Below the pieces are notes generated by a model that made no database searches, was not told where the DNA came from, and saw only the letters and a program-made list of their open reading frames with translations. A program made the position numbers and the translations under genes. Source: Oscillospiraceae bacterium (lineage in GTDB: Bacteria; Bacillota; Clostridia; Oscillospirales; Ruminococcaceae). Taken from it: DNA of 64,000 nt. The stretch is from assembly GCA_009776305.1 (NCBI GenBank), contig WRLY01000003.1, positions 1 to 64,000 on the forward strand, in the 5' to 3' direction. Numbering within the stretch: the first letter of the stretch is position 1; every line of letters starts with the position of its first letter. Below are positions 21,440 to 31,624 of the stretch, piece by piece.

Positions 21440-22117
21440 CTATCGGTTTGCCGATACTCTCCATAGCATTTTGTGCGGCGCGGTTTCGGCGCTGTCTTTA
21501 ATATGACTTGAATCATTTATAAAAACAGGCTTAAAGTCGCCGTTTATGAAATCGGCGCGGCTGATTGAGGTATTATCGCACCAAAACGGATGGGCTGTAA
21601 TTTCTTCCTCAGAAAAGCCGTGAATAAATGAAAGCAGATTATAAATAGCGCAACCGTGGGAAACAAGCCCAATGGTTTTACCCTCATTTTGGCTTATAAT
21701 CCGCAAAACGGCGTTTTTCATACGATTATATACCCCGCGCATGGATTCGCCGTTCGGAGCCTCAAAATGCCCTATATCCTTAAGCCAAACGGAATATGTA
21801 TCGGGGAACAAAGACGGCAATTCCAGCCACTTCTCCCCTTCCATATCGCCGCCGTTTATCTCCATTAAATCCGGCTCAAGCTTTAAAGGCGCGTTATGAA
21901 CGGAATTAACGGCAACTGCGGTCTTTTCGGCTCTTAAAAGCGGCGAGGTATAAATTATGTCAAAAGGAATATCTTTGCAACGCTCTTTCAGCTTTTCGAG
22001 TTGAAGAGCGCCTTTTTCGGTTATATCCCCGTCGGTGCGCCCCTGAAAAACTTCCTCAATATTCCCCTTAGCTTCACAGTGGCGTATTATATATAGTATA
22101 GTTGTTTTTGTCACCAC
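21440..22117 (-). CDS. Histidine phosphatase (phosphoglycerate mutase-like)
   Basis: A 225-residue phosphatase of the cofactor-dependent phosphoglycerate mutase superfamily: catalytic LYIIRHCEAKGN, FQGRTDGDITEKG, the second acid residue around MEINGGDMEGE, and GLVSHGCAIYNLL with the second catalytic His. Substrate not predictable (alpha-ribazole phosphatase and broad-specificity sugar-phosphate phosphatases look alike). It starts at GTG 22117, overlapping the end of pyrD, behind a GGAAGGTG site; it is the last gene of the pyrimidine operon. Confidence 0.85.
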   Translation of the reverse strand: MVTKTTILYIIRHCEAKGNIEEVFQGRTDGDITEKGALQLEKLKERCKDIPFDIIYTSPLLRAEKTAVAVNSVHNAPLKLEPDLMEINGGDMEGEKWLELPSLFPDTYSVWLKDIGHFEAPNGESMRGVYNRMKNAVLRIISQNEGKTIGLVSHGCAIYNLLSFIHGFSEEEITAHPFWCDNTSISRADFINGDFKPVFINDSSHIKDSAETAPHKMLWRVSANR

Positions 22118-23055
22118 GGTTGCACCTTCCCCGTTATGTCGGCTATACGCTTTATGCCGTTTACATCCATGTAATGTTCCAAACCGCCTATGATTTTGAG
22201 CGGCGCTAAAGGGTCTGAAATGATTGCCGTACCGATTTGCACTGCTTTTGCGCCGGCAAGCATCATTTCAACAGCGTCCTCTGCCGAATTGACGCCGCCC
22301 ATTCCGACAACATCAATGTTTACAGCCCTTGCCACCTGCCAGACCATTCTGACAGCCACGGGGAAAACCGCAGGACCCGAAAGTCCGCCCACATTGTTCC
22401 TTAAAACAGGACGCTTGGTTTTTATATCAATTCTCATACCGAGCAATGTATTGATTAGCGAAATAGCGTCCGCGCCCTCGCTTTCGGCGGCTTTAGCAAC
22501 TTCGGTAATATCGGTTACGTTAGGGGTTAGTTTGACCATAAGCGGTTTCTTTGTGGCGTTTCTGACGGCTTTTGTAACAATCACTGCCCCCTCGCTCGAA
22601 ATACCCCACGCCGCCCCGCCTTTTTTCACATTTGGGCAAGATATGTTCAATTCAAGCATATCAACATCTGTTTCATCTAAACGCCGAGCGATTTCAGCGT
22701 AATCCTCCGGAGTTTCGCCCGCTATATTGGCGATTATGACGCTTTGCGGAAAACCGCCTTTTCTAAGACGCGGCAGATGAGTATTTATGAAAAAATCAAT
22801 TCCAGGATTCTGCAATCCAACGGCGTTAAGCATACCGGCGGGGGTTTCGGCTACTCTCGGAGGAATATTGCCGTCTTTTTTATTAAGCGTCAAACCTTTA
22901 CAGGAAATGCCGCCCAATATATTTAAAGGGTAAAGGTCGGTATAATATTCTCCGAAACCGTAAACGCCCGAAGCCGCTATTACGGGATTCGGGAATTTTA
23001 CGCCGGCTACGGTTACTGTTAAATCTCTTTTTTGTGAATTCACAGTACCATTCAT
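22111..23055 (-). CDS. pyrD: Dihydroorotate dehydrogenase B, catalytic subunit
   Basis: A 314-residue FMN enzyme that oxidises dihydroorotate to orotate. Markers of class 1B: FPNPVIAASGVYGFGEYY, the catalytic cysteine in ELNISCPNVKKGG, VKLTPNVTDITEVAKA, and GMGGVNSAEDAVEMMLAGA for FMN phosphate. It pairs with PyrK, whose stop overlaps this start (ATGA), and passes electrons to NAD+ through it. Confidence 0.96.
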   Translation of the reverse strand: MNGTVNSQKRDLTVTVAGVKFPNPVIAASGVYGFGEYYTDLYPLNILGGISCKGLTLNKKDGNIPPRVAETPAGMLNAVGLQNPGIDFFINTHLPRLRKGGFPQSVIIANIAGETPEDYAEIARRLDETDVDMLELNISCPNVKKGGAAWGISSEGAVIVTKAVRNATKKPLMVKLTPNVTDITEVAKAAESEGADAISLINTLLGMRIDIKTKRPVLRNNVGGLSGPAVFPVAVRMVWQVARAVNIDVVGMGGVNSAEDAVEMMLAGAKAVQIGTAIISDPLAPLKIIGGLEHYMDVNGIKRIADITGKVQPW

Positions 23056-23900
23056 AGTACAAGCTCCTCCCCTTTAAATACAGGACCGTCGCGGCAGACC
23101 ATAAGCATTGATTCTTTATCCTGCTTTCTTATAGCACAGGCGCAAACGGCACATGCCCCCACTCCGCAACCCATGCGCTGTTCCATCGACACCTCGCATT
23201 TTACGCCGGCTTGCTGACAGGTTTTTACAATTGCCGCAAGCATTTTCAACGGTCCGCAGGCGTAAACCATTTCAACATCGTTTTTAGCAAGCTCGGTTTC
23301 AAGGGGCGGAATAACCGTCCCGCGAATCCCAACACTTCCGTCGTCGGTACAGGTGATTACATGAACGTGGTTTTGTTTGAAGTCGTTGGCAAGGATTACT
23401 TTATCGTAGCTTTTAAAACCTAAAATCGCCGTTGCCCTCTCCCGCATAACTTTAGCCGCGCCGAGAAGCGGCGGTATACCTATGCCACCACCCACCACGA
23501 TAATGCGTCTGTCGGGGGCGATTATCGGGGCGGACTTTCCGACTGGGGTGAACTTTCCGTCTGGGGCGGACTTTCCGTCTGGGGCGGACTTTCCGTAGGG
23601 CAACGTAAAGCCGTTGCCCAAAGGCGCAATCATATCAATACTATCCCCAACGTTAAGAACAGAAAGCCTTGCCGTGCCGTTCCCGCGAATTTCAAAAACG
23701 ATTCTGACAGAGCCGTTTTTGTAGTCAATATCGCAGATTGACAAAGGTCGGCGCAGAGTGAAGCCCTCCACCTTTATGTGAACAAACTGTCCCGGCTTTG
23801 CTTCCTCCGCGACTTCAGGGCAAAGAATAACATAAGAATATATTCCCGCCGAAATGGCGGTTTTTTCTATAATGTGATATGAGCCGCATCTGTAAGGCAT
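23052..23900 (-). CDS. pyrK: Dihydroorotate dehydrogenase B, electron-transfer subunit (PyrK)
   Basis: A 282-residue iron-sulfur flavoprotein: FAD-binding TLRRPLSICDIDY, NAD-binding IIVVGGGIGIPPLLGAA, and the C-terminal [2Fe-2S] motif MEQRMGCGVGACAVCAC. It carries electrons from PyrD to NAD+. Between the FAD and NAD domains there is an unusual low-complexity insert, (D/V)GKSAP repeated about four times, produced by 18-bp tandem repeats at 23527-23598. Insert length is a multiple of three and the flanking domains are intact, so the enzyme should be functional. Confidence 0.95.
   Translation of the reverse strand: MPYRCGSYHIIEKTAISAGIYSYVILCPEVAEEAKPGQFVHIKVEGFTLRRPLSICDIDYKNGSVRIVFEIRGNGTARLSVLNVGDSIDMIAPLGNGFTLPYGKSAPDGKSAPDGKFTPVGKSAPIIAPDRRIIVVGGGIGIPPLLGAAKVMRERATAILGFKSYDKVILANDFKQNHVHVITCTDDGSVGIRGTVIPPLETELAKNDVEMVYACGPLKMLAAIVKTCQQAGVKCEVSMEQRMGCGVGACAVCACAIRKQDKESMLMVCRDGPVFKGEELVL
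23527..23598 (-). repeat. 18-bp tandem repeat inside pyrK
   Basis: Plus-strand unit GGGGCGGACTTTCCGTCT at 23527-23544, 23545-23562, 23563-23580 and a partial copy from 23581; units 3 and 4 are identical and units 1 and 2 differ by one and two bases. It encodes a six-residue GKSAPD-like period between two PyrK domains. Confidence 0.9.
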
Positions 23901-24861: not shown

Positions 24862-27800
24862 CTATATTTTTGTTATATCAACCATTTCCAAATCATCAAC
24901 CGTCATACCCGATTCAAGACAGTCGGCCAAGGCGTTTGCTGTATCAATTGAGGTCAGGCATACAACGCCGCGCTCAACCGATTTACGGCGAAGTTTCACA
25001 CTGTCAAGGGCGGGGTCTCTACCGGCTTCCGAAGTGGACACAACGTAGTCTATTTTACCGCTTTCAAGCAAAGAAATAACATTCGGCTCTTTGCCGTCTT
25101 TAATCCTATAGGTGAAATTAGCCGGCAACATATTTTTATTCAAAAGTGACGCCGTACCGCTGGTAGCGTAAATTTCAAACCCCATAGCGTCAAACCTGTC
25201 GGCAAGCTCTATAACCTCAGGTTTGTCGGAATTTCGCACCGAGAATAAGATTCCCCTATGTGCGGACTCATTTGAAACGGCTCTCTTCATCTTCATGTTC
25301 GACGCCATAAGACCTTTAAAAAGCGCTTCTTTAAAGGTCTTGGCAATTCCGAGGGTTTCGCCCGTGGACTTCATATCCGGTCCGAGCTGAGTATCCACGT
25401 CATGCAGTTTCTCAAAGCTGAATACAGGTACTTTCACAGCGATATAATCGGTTTCGGGGAATAGTCCGGTAGGAAGCCCCTGCTGTTTCAGGCTATGTCC
25501 GAGCATAGCTTTGGTGGCGATGTCAACCATTTGCACCCCTGTCACCTTGCTTATGTAAGGCACTGTTCTTGACGAGCGCGGGTTCACCTCAATGACATAG
25601 ACCTGATGATTATGAATAACGTACTGTATATTCACAAGTCCGACAATTTTTAATTCCTTTGCAAGACGCTCGGTGTAAGCTATGATGACTTTTTTAATTC
25701 TGTCGTTAATCGTTTGGGTGGGATAGACCGAAATACTGTCGCCTGAATGTACGCCGGCGCGTTCGATGTGCTCCATTATACCCGGAATCAGAAAATCCTT
25801 GCCGTCGCATATAGCGTCAACCTCAACCTCTGTTCCCATTAAATACTTGTCTATAAGCACAGGGTTTTCAAGCTTTGAGGAAGTGATTATTTCCATATAT
25901 TCTTCCACATCGCTGTCGCCGTGGGCAATTATCATATTTTGCCCGCCAAGTACATAAGACGGTCGCAAAAGCACGGGATAACCTAATTTCTTAGCGGCTT
26001 CAACGGCTTCTGCCGCAGTAAAAACAGTATAACCCTCCGGGCGCGGAATTTGGCATTTCTCCAAAAGCGCGTCAAAACGTTCCCTGTCCTCCGCCGCATC
26101 TATGCTGTCGGCTGAAGTGCCTAATATATTCGCCCCGACTTTTTTAAGGTGTTTGGTTAATTTTATAGCCGTCTGTCCACCGAACTGTACCACAACCCCC
26201 CACGGTTTTTCGGTAGCAAGCAAATTATCTACGTCCTCGCCTGTCAGAGGGTCGAAATAAAGACGGTCGCCGGTATCAAAGTCGGTTGAAACAGTTTCAG
26301 GGTTATTATTGCATATAATTGCCTCATAGCCCATTTCTTTAAGCGCCCACACGCAATGCACCGAACAGTAGTCGAACTCAATTCCCTGCCCTATTCTTAT
26401 GGGACCCGAGCCGAAGACAATTATTTTCTTTTTATTTTTATCGCTGTATTTTTCAATAAATTCCGCCGCTTCGTTTTCATCGCCGTATACACCGTAAAAA
26501 TACGGCGTTCCCGACGCGAATTCTCCCGCGCAGGTATCGACGGTTTTGTATACGAACTGCTTTTGGGTTATATTACGGGCGGCTAATTTCTGCCCTGAAA
26601 TTTTTTCAATCGTGCCGTCAAGGTAACCGAATTTTTTAGCCGTCAAATACTTTTCTTGGGTTAATTCCCCATCGGCAAGGCTTTTTTCGATATTGCAAAG
26701 ATTTCTGAGTTTCTCTATAAACCATTTATCTATAAAGGTTATACTGTGAATTTCCTCAGCGCTGATTCCGCGCTTAATTGCCTCAAACACGCAAAACGCA
26801 CGGTCACAGTCGATGTCTTTCAATTTTTCAAGTACTTCGGCGTCTGAAAGCTTTTCAAAAGTCGGCTTTGTCATGGTATCTATACCAAGCTCGATAGAAC
26901 GGACGGCTTTCATCATGGCTTCCTCAAAATTCATGCCTATGGACATAACCTCTCCCGTAGCCTTCATTTGAGTACCCAATGTCTTTTTGGCATGCACGAA
27001 TTTATCAAAAGCAAACCTCGGGAATTTTACCACCACGTAGTCAACAGCAGGTTCAAAGCAGGCGTAGGTTTTGCCTGTGACCTGATTTACGATTTCGTCA
27101 AGAGAGTAGCCGATAGCAATTTTGGTGGCTACTTTAGCAATGGGGTATCCCGTGGCTTTTGAAGCTAACGCCGACGAACGGCTGACCCGCGGATTTACCT
27201 CAATAACGGCGTACTCAAAGCTGTCGGGCTTGAGTGCCAACTGTACATTGCAACCGCCCTCAATTTGGAGCGCGCCGACTATGTTTAAAGAAGCCGTGCG
27301 GAGCATCTGGAATTCCTTGTCCGCAAGCGTCATGGTAGGTACAACCACTATGCTGTCTCCGGTATGAACCCCTACGGGGTCCATATTTTCCATACCGCAT
27401 AAAGTAATGGCGTTACCCTTACCGTCGCGTATAACCTCAAATTCAATTTCTTTCCAGCCTGAAATGCCTTTTTCGATTAAAACCTGCGTAATGGGAGAAA
27501 GGCGCAGACCGTTACCTGCAGTTTCGCGCAATTCTGTTTCATTCGATACAATTCCGCCGCCCGTGCCGCCTAAGGTGAACGCCGGGCGCACAACTACGGG
27601 ATAACCTATAGCCTCAGCGAACTCCACCGCGTTTTCTACCGTCTCTACAACCTTTGAGGGTATACAGGGCTCGCCTATTTCTTTCATGGTATCTTTAAAG
27701 ATTTGCCTGTCCTCGGCTTTATCAATAGTTGAAACGTTAGCTCCGAGAAGCTTAACATTGTTTTCTTCAAGAAAACCTTCTTTGGCGAGTTGCATTGATA

Positions 27801-28092
27801 AAGTAAGTCCGGTCTGCCCGCCGAGTGTTGAAAGCACGCTGTCGGGCTTTTCGATTTTTATTATTTTTTTAACTACTTCAAGGGTCAGCGGTTCTATGTA
27901 AATTTTATCCGCCATATTTTTATCGGTCATTATGGTCGCGGGATTGGAATTGATTAGTACGACTTCCAAGCCTTCTTCTTTTAATGCGCGGCAAGCCTGC
28001 GTCCCCGCGTAGTCGAATTCCGCGGCTTGTCCTATAACTATAGGACCCGAACCTATAACAAGAATTTTCTTAATATCTTTTCTTAACGGCAT
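24862..28092 (-). CDS. carB: Carbamoyl-phosphate synthase large subunit
   Basis: A 1076-residue enzyme, full length for CarB. Two homologous ATP-grasp synthetase halves are visible (VIGSGPIVIGQAAEFDYAG at the N-terminus, VFGSGPIRIGQGIEFDYCS near 560), each with EVNPRxSRSS/T motifs, and a C-terminal MGS-like allosteric domain. It makes carbamoyl phosphate from bicarbonate, two ATP and ammonia delivered from the small subunit. Because the partner CarA has lost its glutaminase triad, this CarB presumably works on free ammonia. Located between carA and a GFA-family gene. Confidence 0.97.
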   Translation of the reverse strand: MPLRKDIKKILVIGSGPIVIGQAAEFDYAGTQACRALKEEGLEVVLINSNPATIMTDKNMADKIYIEPLTLEVVKKIIKIEKPDSVLSTLGGQTGLTLSMQLAKEGFLEENNVKLLGANVSTIDKAEDRQIFKDTMKEIGEPCIPSKVVETVENAVEFAEAIGYPVVVRPAFTLGGTGGGIVSNETELRETAGNGLRLSPITQVLIEKGISGWKEIEFEVIRDGKGNAITLCGMENMDPVGVHTGDSIVVVPTMTLADKEFQMLRTASLNIVGALQIEGGCNVQLALKPDSFEYAVIEVNPRVSRSSALASKATGYPIAKVATKIAIGYSLDEIVNQVTGKTYACFEPAVDYVVVKFPRFAFDKFVHAKKTLGTQMKATGEVMSIGMNFEEAMMKAVRSIELGIDTMTKPTFEKLSDAEVLEKLKDIDCDRAFCVFEAIKRGISAEEIHSITFIDKWFIEKLRNLCNIEKSLADGELTQEKYLTAKKFGYLDGTIEKISGQKLAARNITQKQFVYKTVDTCAGEFASGTPYFYGVYGDENEAAEFIEKYSDKNKKKIIVFGSGPIRIGQGIEFDYCSVHCVWALKEMGYEAIICNNNPETVSTDFDTGDRLYFDPLTGEDVDNLLATEKPWGVVVQFGGQTAIKLTKHLKKVGANILGTSADSIDAAEDRERFDALLEKCQIPRPEGYTVFTAAEAVEAAKKLGYPVLLRPSYVLGGQNMIIAHGDSDVEEYMEIITSSKLENPVLIDKYLMGTEVEVDAICDGKDFLIPGIMEHIERAGVHSGDSISVYPTQTINDRIKKVIIAYTERLAKELKIVGLVNIQYVIHNHQVYVIEVNPRSSRTVPYISKVTGVQMVDIATKAMLGHSLKQQGLPTGLFPETDYIAVKVPVFSFEKLHDVDTQLGPDMKSTGETLGIAKTFKEALFKGLMASNMKMKRAVSNESAHRGILFSVRNSDKPEVIELADRFDAMGFEIYATSGTASLLNKNMLPANFTYRIKDGKEPNVISLLESGKIDYVVSTSEAGRDPALDSVKLRRKSVERGVVCLTSIDTANALADCLESGMTVDDLEMVDITKI

Positions 28093-28141: not shown

Positions 28142-29221
28142 CTAATCCATTATTTTTATAAGCTTAATAAACTTTTCCGCCAAATGCGAGGTGTCGTTCT
28201 TACTTCCGAGCGTCTGCGGTTCAAACTGTAAAGTCAATACGGGTGCGCCACCGTAGCTTATTCCCTCGCAGGTTCGGTCATTGGCGTTAACGTGGGTTAT
28301 TTTCGCGGTTTCGGGCGGGGTTTCAACTACATAGCCATGACTTTGCAGGGTTAAAAAGGTTCTGTCAAGCTCAAGGTCAACCACAGGCTGATTTGCCCCT
28401 CTGTGCCCGCTTTTGAGTTTAGCGGTTTTGCCACCAAGGGCGAGCGCAGTAACAAGATGCCCAAGCCCAATTCCGAGGAGCGGGATTTTGGCTTCAAACA
28501 ATTTTTTAACCGTGTCAAGTAATTCAGGATTTTTCAGGAAATCTGCAGGGTCGCCCGGTCCATCAGACAGAACAACGCCGTTATATTTTTTTCCGATAAT
28601 GTCTTCCGCCTTTGTATTGTAGGGCAAAACAGTAACGTCGCAGTTATATTTATGCAGTAACTCAATGGTTGAAAGTCTTACACCGTAATCAATCAAAGCT
28701 ATGTTGTACTTACCGCCTAAAAGAGATTCACAGTGAACCGGCTCTTTAACACTGACTTTCGGCAAAGGATTCCCGACGCTGAAAGCCTTAATGTCCTCTA
28801 TAAAGGCGCTGTCGGGTTCATGGTCGGTAATTCCGGCGTTCATAGAACCTTTATCCCTTAATATTCTCGTAAGGCTTCTGGTATCTATGCTGCAGATTCC
28901 GACGATTCCGCGCTTTTTTAAAAATCCGTCAATCGTACCGTTTGAGCGGAAATTAGACGGCTGTTCGCAATACTCGCGGACTATGTAACCGGAGGCGCAA
29001 TGCTCGGAGTTATTGTCCTCGTCGTTGACGCCGTAGTTTCCTATTGACGGAAAGGTTTGAACAACTAATTGCCCGAAATAGTTAGGATTAGTAAGCGTTT
29101 CCTGATACCCTGTCATTACGGTCGTGAAGACCGCCTCGCCGATTGCCTTACCGGACGCGCCAAAGGCGTTCCCCTCAAAAACAGTTCCGTCGGCTAAGAT
29201 TAACCATGCTTTTTTGTTCAT
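28142..29221 (-). CDS. carA: Carbamoyl-phosphate synthase small subunit lacking the glutaminase triad
   Basis: A 359-residue CarA with normal length and domain order: N-terminal interaction domain (MTGYQETLTNPNYFGQLVV, GIVGICSIDTRSLTRILRD) and a C-terminal class I amidotransferase domain (VVLSDGPGDP). The catalytic residues are replaced. The nucleophile Cys of GICLGH is Gly252 (GIGLGH, codon GGG at 28466-28468), the His is Glu334 and the Glu is Gln336 (LQFEPQ, where the norm is QxHPE). The alignment around these sites needs no gaps. It should still support CarB structurally but not hydrolyse glutamine. The gene is otherwise intact and sits between pyrF and carB. Confidence 0.93.
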   Translation of the reverse strand: MNKKAWLILADGTVFEGNAFGASGKAIGEAVFTTVMTGYQETLTNPNYFGQLVVQTFPSIGNYGVNDEDNNSEHCASGYIVREYCEQPSNFRSNGTIDGFLKKRGIVGICSIDTRSLTRILRDKGSMNAGITDHEPDSAFIEDIKAFSVGNPLPKVSVKEPVHCESLLGGKYNIALIDYGVRLSTIELLHKYNCDVTVLPYNTKAEDIIGKKYNGVVLSDGPGDPADFLKNPELLDTVKKLFEAKIPLLGIGLGHLVTALALGGKTAKLKSGHRGANQPVVDLELDRTFLTLQSHGYVVETPPETAKITHVNANDRTCEGISYGGAPVLTLQFEPQTLGSKNDTSHLAEKFIKLIKIMD

Positions 29222-29249: not shown

Positions 29250-30203
29250 TTATGGTAATTTTATTATCCCTATATGCTCCATAAGAGCTTCTTTCATTTT
29301 CAAAGCTTCTCTCCGCGCCGCTTCGGCAAAATCCTTTTGGTTACATTTTTCTTTTTGGTAGGCGCACATAATTGCCCTTGAACTGTTCACAATTCCGCCC
29401 AAGCCGTTTTTATCAAAAGCAGATTTTAAGTCTTCGGCTCTGCCTCCCTGCGCTCCGTAGCCGGGTATTAAAAAGAAAGTGTACGGCAGCATTTCACGAA
29501 GCTCCTTAATTTGCTCGGGGTATGTCGCGCCGACCACCGCGCCCACACCGGAATAGCCGTAACGTTTTTTACCCGCCGCGCCCCATTTCTCGCACATGCG
29601 CCCCATGATTTCATAGATGGTGTCGCCGTCGGCGAATCCTGTCACTTTACCCACAACTTTATCCTGTAATTCGCCTGAGGAAGGGTTCGAGGTTTTCACA
29701 AGTACGAAAATACCCTTGTCATATTTTTTACAGGCGTCGGTAAACGGCATAATGCCGTCCGAACCGAGATAGCCGTTGACCGTCAGAGCGTCAACGGGGA
29801 AAGGACTGTACAGTTCTTCGCCGATTTTGATTTTTCCGAGATACGCCGCCGCGTAACCCTCGGCGGTAGAGCCTATATCGTTGCGCTTGCCGTCAGCTAT
29901 AACGTAAAGCCCGCGCTCTTTGGCATATACAATTGTTTTATGGAACGCCTTTACCCCCTCTACGCCGAGCATTTCATAAAAAGCAAGCTGGGGCTTTACG
30001 GCGGGGACAATATCATAAATCGCGTCAATTATACCTTTATTGAATTTCAAAATGGCTTTTGCCGCCCCTTTCGGGTTCATGCCATATTTGACAAAGGCTT
30101 TTTTCTTAATGAATTCGGGGACGTATTCTAACTTAGGGTCAAGCCCCACAACAGTTGGATTTTGAGTTTTAACTATTTTTTCGATTAAAAGGTCAAGGGA
30201 CAT
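29250..30203 (-). CDS. pyrF: Orotidine 5'-phosphate decarboxylase (type 2)
   Basis: A protein of about 317 residues: PTVVGLDPKLEYVP at the N-terminus and the catalytic Asp/Lys motif VIADGKRNDIGSTAEGY, the longer subfamily common in Clostridia. It decarboxylates OMP to UMP. Two starts are possible: the ATG at 30215, directly abutting GGAGAGG, and the ATG at 30203, whose product (MSLDLLIEKI) matches the usual family start; I prefer the latter. The first ATG is part of a 66-bp repeat that also precedes miaA. Confidence 0.93.
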   Translation of the reverse strand: MSLDLLIEKIVKTQNPTVVGLDPKLEYVPEFIKKKAFVKYGMNPKGAAKAILKFNKGIIDAIYDIVPAVKPQLAFYEMLGVEGVKAFHKTIVYAKERGLYVIADGKRNDIGSTAEGYAAAYLGKIKIGEELYSPFPVDALTVNGYLGSDGIMPFTDACKKYDKGIFVLVKTSNPSSGELQDKVVGKVTGFADGDTIYEIMGRMCEKWGAAGKKRYGYSGVGAVVGATYPEQIKELREMLPYTFFLIPGYGAQGGRAEDLKSAFDKNGLGGIVNSSRAIMCAYQKEKCNQKDFAEAARREALKMKEALMEHIGIIKLP

Positions 30204-30206
30204 ATC

Positions 30207-30272
30207 AAATACCATCCTCTCCAGGCACCAACGAGTGGTGAAATATTTTTCCTCTTATACTTGAGCTTTTTT
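30207..30272 (-). repeat. 66-bp intergenic repeat, copy A (upstream of pyrF)
   Basis: 62 of 66 bases are identical to copy B at 46105-46170, in the same orientation. On the minus strand it runs from AAAAAAGCTCAAGTAT just downstream of the pyrC stop, through a small hairpin with CACCA / TGGTG arms, to GGAGAGGATGGTATTT, so it ends on the first ATG of the following gene. Confidence 0.85.
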
Positions 30273-30290: not shown

Positions 30291-31580
30291 TTAATCCTCA
30301 TAAACAACTTCTCCACCCACAATCGTATACTTAACCCTGCCTTTTAACTTCATGCCTTTAAAGCAGGAATTTTTGGATTTAGACTTAAATTTATCAGGCT
30401 CTACCGTCCATTCCTCGTTGGGATTGAACAGGGTTATATCGGCGGGTTGCCCGGGAGCAATGCTTATTTCCCGTAGACTAAGGATTTTACGCGGATTTAC
30501 GCACATAAGCCTTACTATGTCGGGAAGACTTATTTTTTCTGTATGATACAGGAAAGTCAAGGTAGCGGCGAGCGAGGTTTCAAGCCCGATTACGCCGTTC
30601 GGGGCGGCGCGGAAGTCGGCTTTTTCTTGCAGGCTGTGGGGAGCATGGTCGGTGGCTATGCAGTCTATGGTTTTATCCATTATGCCCCCGATAACAGCGT
30701 CAACGTCTTCCTGAGTACGCAGGGGCGGATTCATTCGGTAATCGGCGTCTAAGGTCAAAAGCATGTCCTCGGTAAGCGCGAAATAATGCGGTGCGGTTTC
30801 GCAGGTTACTTGTACTCCTGCCGCTTTTGCCGCACGGACTTTTTCAACCGATTCTTTGGTTGAAACATGGGCGACATGCACCTTTTCGCACAAATCCCGC
30901 GCAAGGTCTATTTCGCGGGAGGTTATAATATTTTCGCTCGCACGGTGAATTCCGCGAACGCCGAGCATAATGCTGACCTTGCCCGCATTCATAAATCCGC
31001 CGCAGGCTATATCCAAATCCTCGCAGTGGGAAATCACCGTCATTCCCGCCATACTTGCCTTAATCATCGCCTCGCCCATTGTCGCTGAATTTCTTACGGG
31101 TCTGCCGTCATCGGTTACGGCTATTGCCGGCGAGCCACCGGAGGGGAAATTTTCGGCTTTACTTAAAAGCTCAAAATCACACAATTCTTTGCCCTCCTGC
31201 CCTTTTGTAATAGCACAGGACGGGTAGATTTTAACTTTAGCTGATTTGGCTTTTTCGGCAATATATTTTAAAGTTTCCGCATTATCAATAACAGGCTCGG
31301 TATTCGGCATACAAAGAAATCCTGTAATCCCGCCCGCCGCTGCCGCTTCAGCACAGGTCAGCAGGTCTTCTTTATGGGTCTGTCCCGGGTCGCGGGCGTG
31401 AACGTGCATATCAAAAATTCCGGGTATAGCGATTAATCCGGTACAATCCATTACGGTTTCACAGTTTTTTTCAATTTTATCGGAAACGGCAGTAATTTTG
31501 CCGTTATCAATTAATATATCTTTCTCGCCGTCAATTCCCGATATATAATCTGCAACATGCGCGTTCTTCAATAAAATCAT
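30291..31580 (-). CDS. pyrC: Dihydroorotase
   Basis: A protein of about 429 residues, class I amidohydrolase: metal-binding GIFDMHVHARDPGQTHKED, ISHCEDL, VHVAHVSTKESVE and the catalytic ATDHAPHS. It converts carbamoyl aspartate to dihydroorotate. I choose the ATG at 31580, 9 nt after AAAGG; the ATG six nt upstream is too close. The promoter lies at 31625-31653 and the leader is too short for a PyrR-type attenuator, so no pyrimidine control element is visible. First gene of the pyr operon. Confidence 0.95.
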   Translation of the reverse strand: MILLKNAHVADYISGIDGEKDILIDNGKITAVSDKIEKNCETVMDCTGLIAIPGIFDMHVHARDPGQTHKEDLLTCAEAAAAGGITGFLCMPNTEPVIDNAETLKYIAEKAKSAKVKIYPSCAITKGQEGKELCDFELLSKAENFPSGGSPAIAVTDDGRPVRNSATMGEAMIKASMAGMTVISHCEDLDIACGGFMNAGKVSIMLGVRGIHRASENIITSREIDLARDLCEKVHVAHVSTKESVEKVRAAKAAGVQVTCETAPHYFALTEDMLLTLDADYRMNPPLRTQEDVDAVIGGIMDKTIDCIATDHAPHSLQEKADFRAAPNGVIGLETSLAATLTFLYHTEKISLPDIVRLMCVNPRKILSLREISIAPGQPADITLFNPNEEWTVEPDKFKSKSKNSCFKGMKLKGRVKYTIVGGEVVYED

Positions 31581-31624
31581 TTTCATATTCCTTTAAACTA
31601 AGAGCGTTTTACCATATTCATTTA

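Follow-up and report, generated by a model that had tools for sequence, protein, structure and literature searches.

The carbamoyl-phosphate synthetase (CPS) of the pyr operon in this Oscillospiraceae bacterium, and in many of its relatives, probably takes free NH3, with CarA retained as a structural subunit and glutamine use either left to a second CarA or given up. This reading, drawn from sequence comparison, starts from a carA gene with a lost glutaminase site in the stretch of 64,000 nucleotides analysed here (the window). In the mechanism we propose, CarB would carry the ATP-dependent chemistry and be fed with free NH3; CarA would no longer hydrolyse glutamine and would be kept for a structural and perhaps regulatory role, served mainly by its N-terminal CPSase_sm_chain domain, the part that CarB would still need. 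Glutamine use would pass to a second CarA, whose gene lies with glutamate-synthase, purine and ammonium-transporter genes, or would be abandoned; judged only by its genes, that second operon would be expressed at ammonium shortage.

The window CarA has both domains of a CPS small subunit (Pfam CPSase_sm_chain, residues 7–131, 4e-49; GATase, residues 176–353, 9.8e-35) and scored 351.6 bits against TIGR01368 (cut-off 307.35), a match through which the protein is still annotated as glutamine-hydrolysing. Numbers of the replaced CarA residues refer to E. coli CarA, chain 1c30_B, a mutant chain with Ser at position 269, and those of the replacing residues to the window protein. The alignment to this chain is gap-free at the triad sites and, together with the codon, confirmed what an earlier note on this DNA had described, namely that the catalytic Cys, His and Glu are replaced by Gly252, Glu334 and Gln336 (Table 1). 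Ser47, Gln273 and Asn311, which we take to be glutamine contacts, are replaced as well. Sequencing error was rejected as the cause, since six replacements in one pocket are beyond any such error and the same type of loss occurs in parallel in other assemblies. According to passages of PMC6245113, E. coli CarA cannot do without Cys269 and His353; with the nucleophile and the pocket absent, the window CarA is therefore not expected to hydrolyse glutamine.

The same note had called the gene otherwise intact and placed it inside a pyr operon, which agrees with the open frame, the two domains, and the intact CarB and pyr neighbours. The genes lie on one strand in the order pyrC, pyrF, carA, carB, two small unrelated ORFs, pyrK-like and pyrD; no Rfam family reached its gathering score as an RNA leader in the window or in locus L012. 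A two-domain CarA beside a full CarB is the layout of CPS II, and the two subunits are encoded by separate genes and not fused in one chain as in CPS I. The active site departs from this class: Gly, Glu and Gln stand where glutamine-dependent CPS II has its Cys-His-Glu triad, and the absence of the nucleophile Cys is a feature of CPS I.

Table 1 Features of the window pyr operon and of the glutaminase site of its CarA.
Feature	Position	Strand	Basis
pyrD	22111..23055	-	NF005574 and TIGR01037 above cut-off
pyrK-like electron-transfer subunit	23052..23900	-	best NCBIfam matches: dihydroorotate dehydrogenase electron transfer subunits, all below cut-offs
carB, complete large subunit, 1076 aa, presumed NH3-using partner	24862..28092	-	ORF, Pfam, NCBIfam; gate position by alignment
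carA, glutaminase site dead	28142..29221	-	359 aa, uninterrupted ORF
Gln336, replaces catalytic Glu355	28214..28216	-	alignment to 1c30_B
Glu334, replaces catalytic His353	28220..28222	-	alignment to 1c30_B
Ser294, replaces Asn311	28340..28342	-	alignment
Leu256, replaces Gln273	28454..28456	-	alignment
Gly252, replaces catalytic Cys269	28466..28468	-	CCC on + strand, GGG on - strand; alignment to 1c30_B
Asn47, replaces Ser47 in N-terminal domain	29081..29083	-	alignment
pyrF, upstream neighbour, same direction	29250..30215	-	TIGR02127 above cut-off
pyrC	30291..31586	-	TIGR00857 above cut-off

Family searches of the window genome assembly (1.54 Mb, 71% complete) revealed two copies each of CarA and CarB. 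The second CarA is intact (motifs GICLGHQ, QNHGY and VQFHPEA). We take its neighbourhood to consist of glutamate-synthase pieces, purC, purB, purA, purF, carA, carB, guaA and pyrG, in a run that presumably also includes an ammonium transporter with a PII-like end; the family searches confirmed the CarA and CarB of this locus and the GATase domains of guaA and pyrG. Contrary to what had been assumed earlier, the window CarA thus does not belong to the sole CPS of the organism, and the organism can retain a glutamine-using CPS beside the pyr enzyme. A second intact glutaminase subunit had been named in the earlier note as evidence against its own reading; one is present, with its own CarB, and it does not overturn the ammonia claim for the pyr enzyme, although as a counterpoint it might serve the pyr CarB in trans. 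A general loss of amidotransferase activity was likewise rejected: PF00117 found seven class I amidotransferases in the assembly, and all five that are not CarA have the catalytic Cys, so that, with the second CarA intact, only the pyr CarA has suffered the loss, to the extent that this incomplete assembly shows. The genome also carries two CTP synthase genes (G000:C4, L005; G000:C1, L008), both with the catalytic Cys.

We then searched 148 genomes of the family (134 matched, at any strength) and 71 of the genus (70 matched), 3 of them shared and 216 in total. Family matches were taken as CarA only at E below 1e-60, and 69 places, down to E 3e-41, were examined in the genus search. With five loci that repeat a gene removed, and two short pieces in G014, the second piece in G036 and weak GATase matches left out, the set comprised 206 distinct loci in 187 genomes among the matches listed. 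CarAs without the nucleophile Cys are called dead below; contig-edge CarAs were not scored as dead, and those of G070 and G172 (Cys present, Glu355 absent) were scored as intact. Among the matches listed, 45 of the 216 genomes have a dead CarA. Fifteen of them also have an intact CarA, and 30 have no other CarA (single copy by PF00988; these are the dead-only genomes), with completeness of at least 90% in 19 of the 30.

Loss of the nucleophile is unevenly distributed between gene contexts. Among the matches listed, 134 CarAs in pyr context are uninterrupted by a contig end: the Cys is present in 97 and missing from 33 (one of these, in G161, with the GATase partly deleted), and 4 are without GATase. 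In all 33 listed CarAs whose only neighbouring markers are of nitrogen or purine type, the Cys is present. With contig-edge loci included, 37 of 138 pyr CarAs are Cys-less vs 0 of 33 in nitrogen or purine context (Fisher 2e-4, kinship ignored). Where a genome has both an intact and a dead copy, the intact one is that in nitrogen or purine context in 13/15. As a counterpoint, dead CarAs are not confined to the pyr context: eight dead copies have no assigned context, one of which adjoins an ORF read by eye as argF, and in G134 it is the pyr copy that is intact. The dead copies of G155 and G160 are nearer the second CarA type than the pyr type.

Two CarAs scored as intact, in G070 (L046) and G172 (L195), keep Cys and His and have Asn and Asp in place of Glu355, possibly early steps of loss; that of G172 also has Tyr for His312. 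A Clostridiales MAG locus (L177) has an intact CarA. Across the phylum, a nucleotide pattern that specifies Gly in place of the Cys, and would miss other replacements, matched 25 of 398 genomes (2 for the backward control); the 25 comprise four CarAs from three other families and 21 matches that are not CarA. Loss of the CarA site thus recurs outside the family but is concentrated within it.

Residues were compared in the 195 of 206 loci that are full-length (40 dead, 155 intact). An alignment of CarA homologues had been suggested earlier as a check for co-loss of the triad, and co-loss was found: His353 is kept in 6/40 dead vs 155/155 intact CarAs, and Glu355 in 17/40 vs 153/155, with many different residues at both positions in dead CarAs. 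The Cys itself is replaced by Gly (31), Asp (3), Arg (3), Ser (2) or Ala (1). Ser47 is kept in 12/40 dead vs 151/155 intact CarAs, which points to lost glutamine binding, since this residue lies in the other domain; against such a loss, Gln273 is kept in 31/40 and Asn311 in 38/40 dead CarAs. Dead CarAs have diverged more in the GATase than in the N-terminal part (Mann-Whitney 5e-14): identity to the intact pyr CarA consensus is 0.51 in dead vs 0.73 in intact CarAs for the GATase and 0.57 vs 0.68 for the N-terminal part, and dead CarAs keep 0.92 of conserved N-terminal columns and 0.77 of GATase columns.

The loss has occurred repeatedly and independently. A tree of 202 CarAs built without the site columns required at least 15 state changes and contained 15 all-dead clades, and a mixture-model tree of 198 rows at least 14 changes; four contig-edge fragments are excluded from both, and four N-terminal-domain-only CarAs also from the latter. 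The number of losses is approximate: some branches have weak support, and one clade of 18 dead rows from several genera may reflect either an ancient loss or long-branch attraction. In a genus tree of 60 rows, made by a careful search with the Ser47 column also removed, there were four dead clades, and forcing a single one cost 169 log-likelihood units and was rejected. Among the most closely related dead pairs, dN/dS was 0.01–0.16 wherever dS was unsaturated, which by sequence indicates purifying selection on these CarAs. A pseudogene would show a broken frame or dN/dS near 1; the window frame is open and its dead relatives have the low values above, the window carA itself being too distant for dN/dS to be measurable (best same-genus identity 59%).

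Several genomes of the genus encode a CarA reduced to its N-terminal domain, hereafter mini-CarA, in G189 (147 aa), G158 (141 aa), G151 (170 aa) and G153 (164 aa), sizes being frame lengths not trimmed to the start. All four matched PF00988 and no GATase family, that of G151 with an additional chance-level match to Csm4_C. The genes for these minis and for the partly deleted CarA of G161 (282 aa) all lie between pyrF and carB. The gap from the mini stop to the carB start is about 10 bases in G158 and G153; it is wider in G189 (about 130) and G151 (about 200), where the intervening bases have no GATase similarity, although in G151 similarity to the second CarA extends about 20 residues beyond the mini stop. 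G158 and G189 have no CarA besides the mini. G185, G186, G141, G032 and likewise G006 lack carA in the slot between pyrF and carB, their intact CarA being encoded elsewhere, and in G105 (L171) and G061 (L173), both 97% complete, PF00988 found no CarA genome-wide; the pyr clusters of these two contain pyrC, carB, pyrK and pyrD.

Of 250 conserved columns, the CarBs encoded next to dead CarAs retain 0.96. At positions given in what we take to be E. coli CarB numbering, Cys232 and Ala314 are present in 41/41 and Ala251 in 39/41, while Gln at the Q262 position is kept in 21/41 vs 128/137 beside intact CarAs and is absent from the CarBs of the CarA-less pyr operons of G105 and G061. The window CarB has Val at the gate position equivalent to Ala251, the sole Val among the 41. 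Blocking of the ammonia tunnel by a bulky residue at the Gly293 site, as in animal CPS1, is not the rule: at that site the residue in dead CarAs is Ala in 24, Ser in 10, Gly in 5, Leu in 1 and Asn in 1. One or two transcarbamylases were found with PF02729, which does not separate aspartate from ornithine transcarbamylase, in 40/40 genomes checked, including 26 of the 30 dead-only genomes; carbamoyl phosphate thus still has a use in them.

Other CarB forms were also observed. A second CarB type (L157–L170, L172; e.g. G132:C1:1073753) scores above the CarB family cut-off, shares about 44% identity with the window CarB and has no CarA or pyr genes adjoining; G077, G084 and G106 have it and no CarA, and such a solo CarB is possibly another ammonia-using CPS. 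In L114 (G001) and L177 (3770–7846) CarB runs in frame into a C-terminus that we take to be DapF-like (diaminopimelate epimerase), an apparent CarB-DapF fusion, and other CarB frames of about 1350 aa suggest further ones.

The mechanism put forward earlier, with CarA structural only and NH3 taken by CarB, is strengthened by the repeated loss, the selection, the 30 dead-only genomes and the minis, and stands as a comparison-based proposal. Passages of PMC6245113 state that CarB forms carbamoyl phosphate from ammonia, and also that E. coli CPS requires very high, likely unphysiological NH3. The main difficulty for the ammonia reading is this poor use of NH3 by E. coli CPS combined with the finding that no CarB change improving NH3 use was identified in the CarBs beside dead CarAs. 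The pyr CarA could instead be a remnant, decaying after a second CarAB took over and leaving the pyr CPS to contribute little. The second intact pair of the window genome, the intact CarA in 15 of the 45 dead-CarA genomes and the faster evolution of the GATase domain would suit this account; we consider it very improbable given the 30 of 45 genomes without another CarA, the low dN/dS of dead pairs with their intact frames and conserved CarB, and the clean retention of the N-terminal domain in the minis. The dead GATase domain might also have gained a new role in sensing another amine or metabolite or in allosteric control, as its full length under constraint in most dead CarAs and the retention of His312 and Gly241 in 40/40 would allow, but replacements that differ among lineages and the complete absence of the domain from four genomes make this improbable.

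More plausible than either, though still unlikely, is an exchange of subunits, in which the dead or missing pyr CarA would be only the default partner and an intact CarA from the nitrogen or purine locus would, at low ammonium, bind the pyr CarB in trans, rendering it dependent on glutamine. In eight genomes an intact CarA adjoins neither a carB nor a contig end, and the single ordinary CarB is in the pyr operon: G114, G154 and G082, with a dead pyr CarA alongside, and G141, G186, G185, G032 and G006, with no pyr carA. Their CarBs have Gln at the Q262 position in 8/8, vs 2/11 in genomes that combine a dead CarA with a complete second pair (Fisher 7e-4; a post hoc test that ignores kinship). 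G032 and G082 additionally carry the 44%-identical solo CarB paralogue. Against exchange, the intact CarA is near a contig end in G006 and G185, and the 30 dead-only genomes have no second CarA to which it could apply; in the window genome it is not needed, since the intact CarA has its own second CarB. Gln at the Q262 position in 16 of the 27 readable dead-only genomes fits well with neither exchange nor ammonia use. A broader, tentative possibility, less likely than not, is a nitrogen-source switch: the pyr CPS would run on NH3, with CarA dead, reduced to its N-terminal domain or absent, and the glutaminase CarA would have moved to the glutamate-synthase and amtB genes, with its own CarB or lent to the pyr CarB at low ammonium. 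Across this evidence we prefer ammonia feeding of the pyr CPS, and infer NH3 as its actual substrate.

E. coli CarB alone reportedly forms carbamoyl phosphate from NH3 in vivo (Rubino 1987). The window system resembles E. coli CarA-CarB (CPS II) in its two genes, its domains and its complete carB, and differs in lacking the catalytic triad and further pocket residues of CarA; for the E. coli enzyme, a review gives glutamine as the physiological donor. Engineered replacements of Cys269 in E. coli are matched here by natural CarAs with Gly at that position, in which the change is repeated and other pocket residues, or the entire domain, are lost with it. Like the window CarA, CPS1 of urea-cycle animals has a replaced nucleophile Cys (Ser294 in human) and an inactive glutaminase-like domain that is kept, and it uses NH3 (passages of PMC4655335). 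CPS1 differs in being one fused chain, mitochondrial and dependent on N-acetylglutamate, with a bulky residue blocking the old ammonia tunnel, and in sequence the window CarA is less similar to CPS1 than to E. coli CarA. NAD synthetases offer a parallel, since in that family the amide source, glutamine or ammonia, varies with the presence of a glutaminase domain (PMC3376133), in a different enzyme with another glutaminase fold. In open-licence full-text literature, the scope of our search as distinct from subscription papers, we found no report of a nucleophile-less or N-domain-only bacterial CarA or of a bacterial CPS without glutaminase; a natural ammonia-type bacterial CPS with such a CarA appears undescribed, its parts being known.

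CPS enzymes are classed by nitrogen source, with bacteria under the glutamine-using CPS II, according to sections of PMC6022934. The genomes described here look like natural, repeated exceptions to this rule, in which pyrimidine synthesis would depend on free ammonia, as would arginine synthesis where that pathway shares the carbamoyl phosphate. They may serve as replicate evolutionary experiments on the need for the glutaminase subunit, the route of NH3 to CarB and the indispensable part of CarA; if the nitrogen-source switch holds, the N-terminal domain would by itself be a functional, minimal small subunit of CPS.
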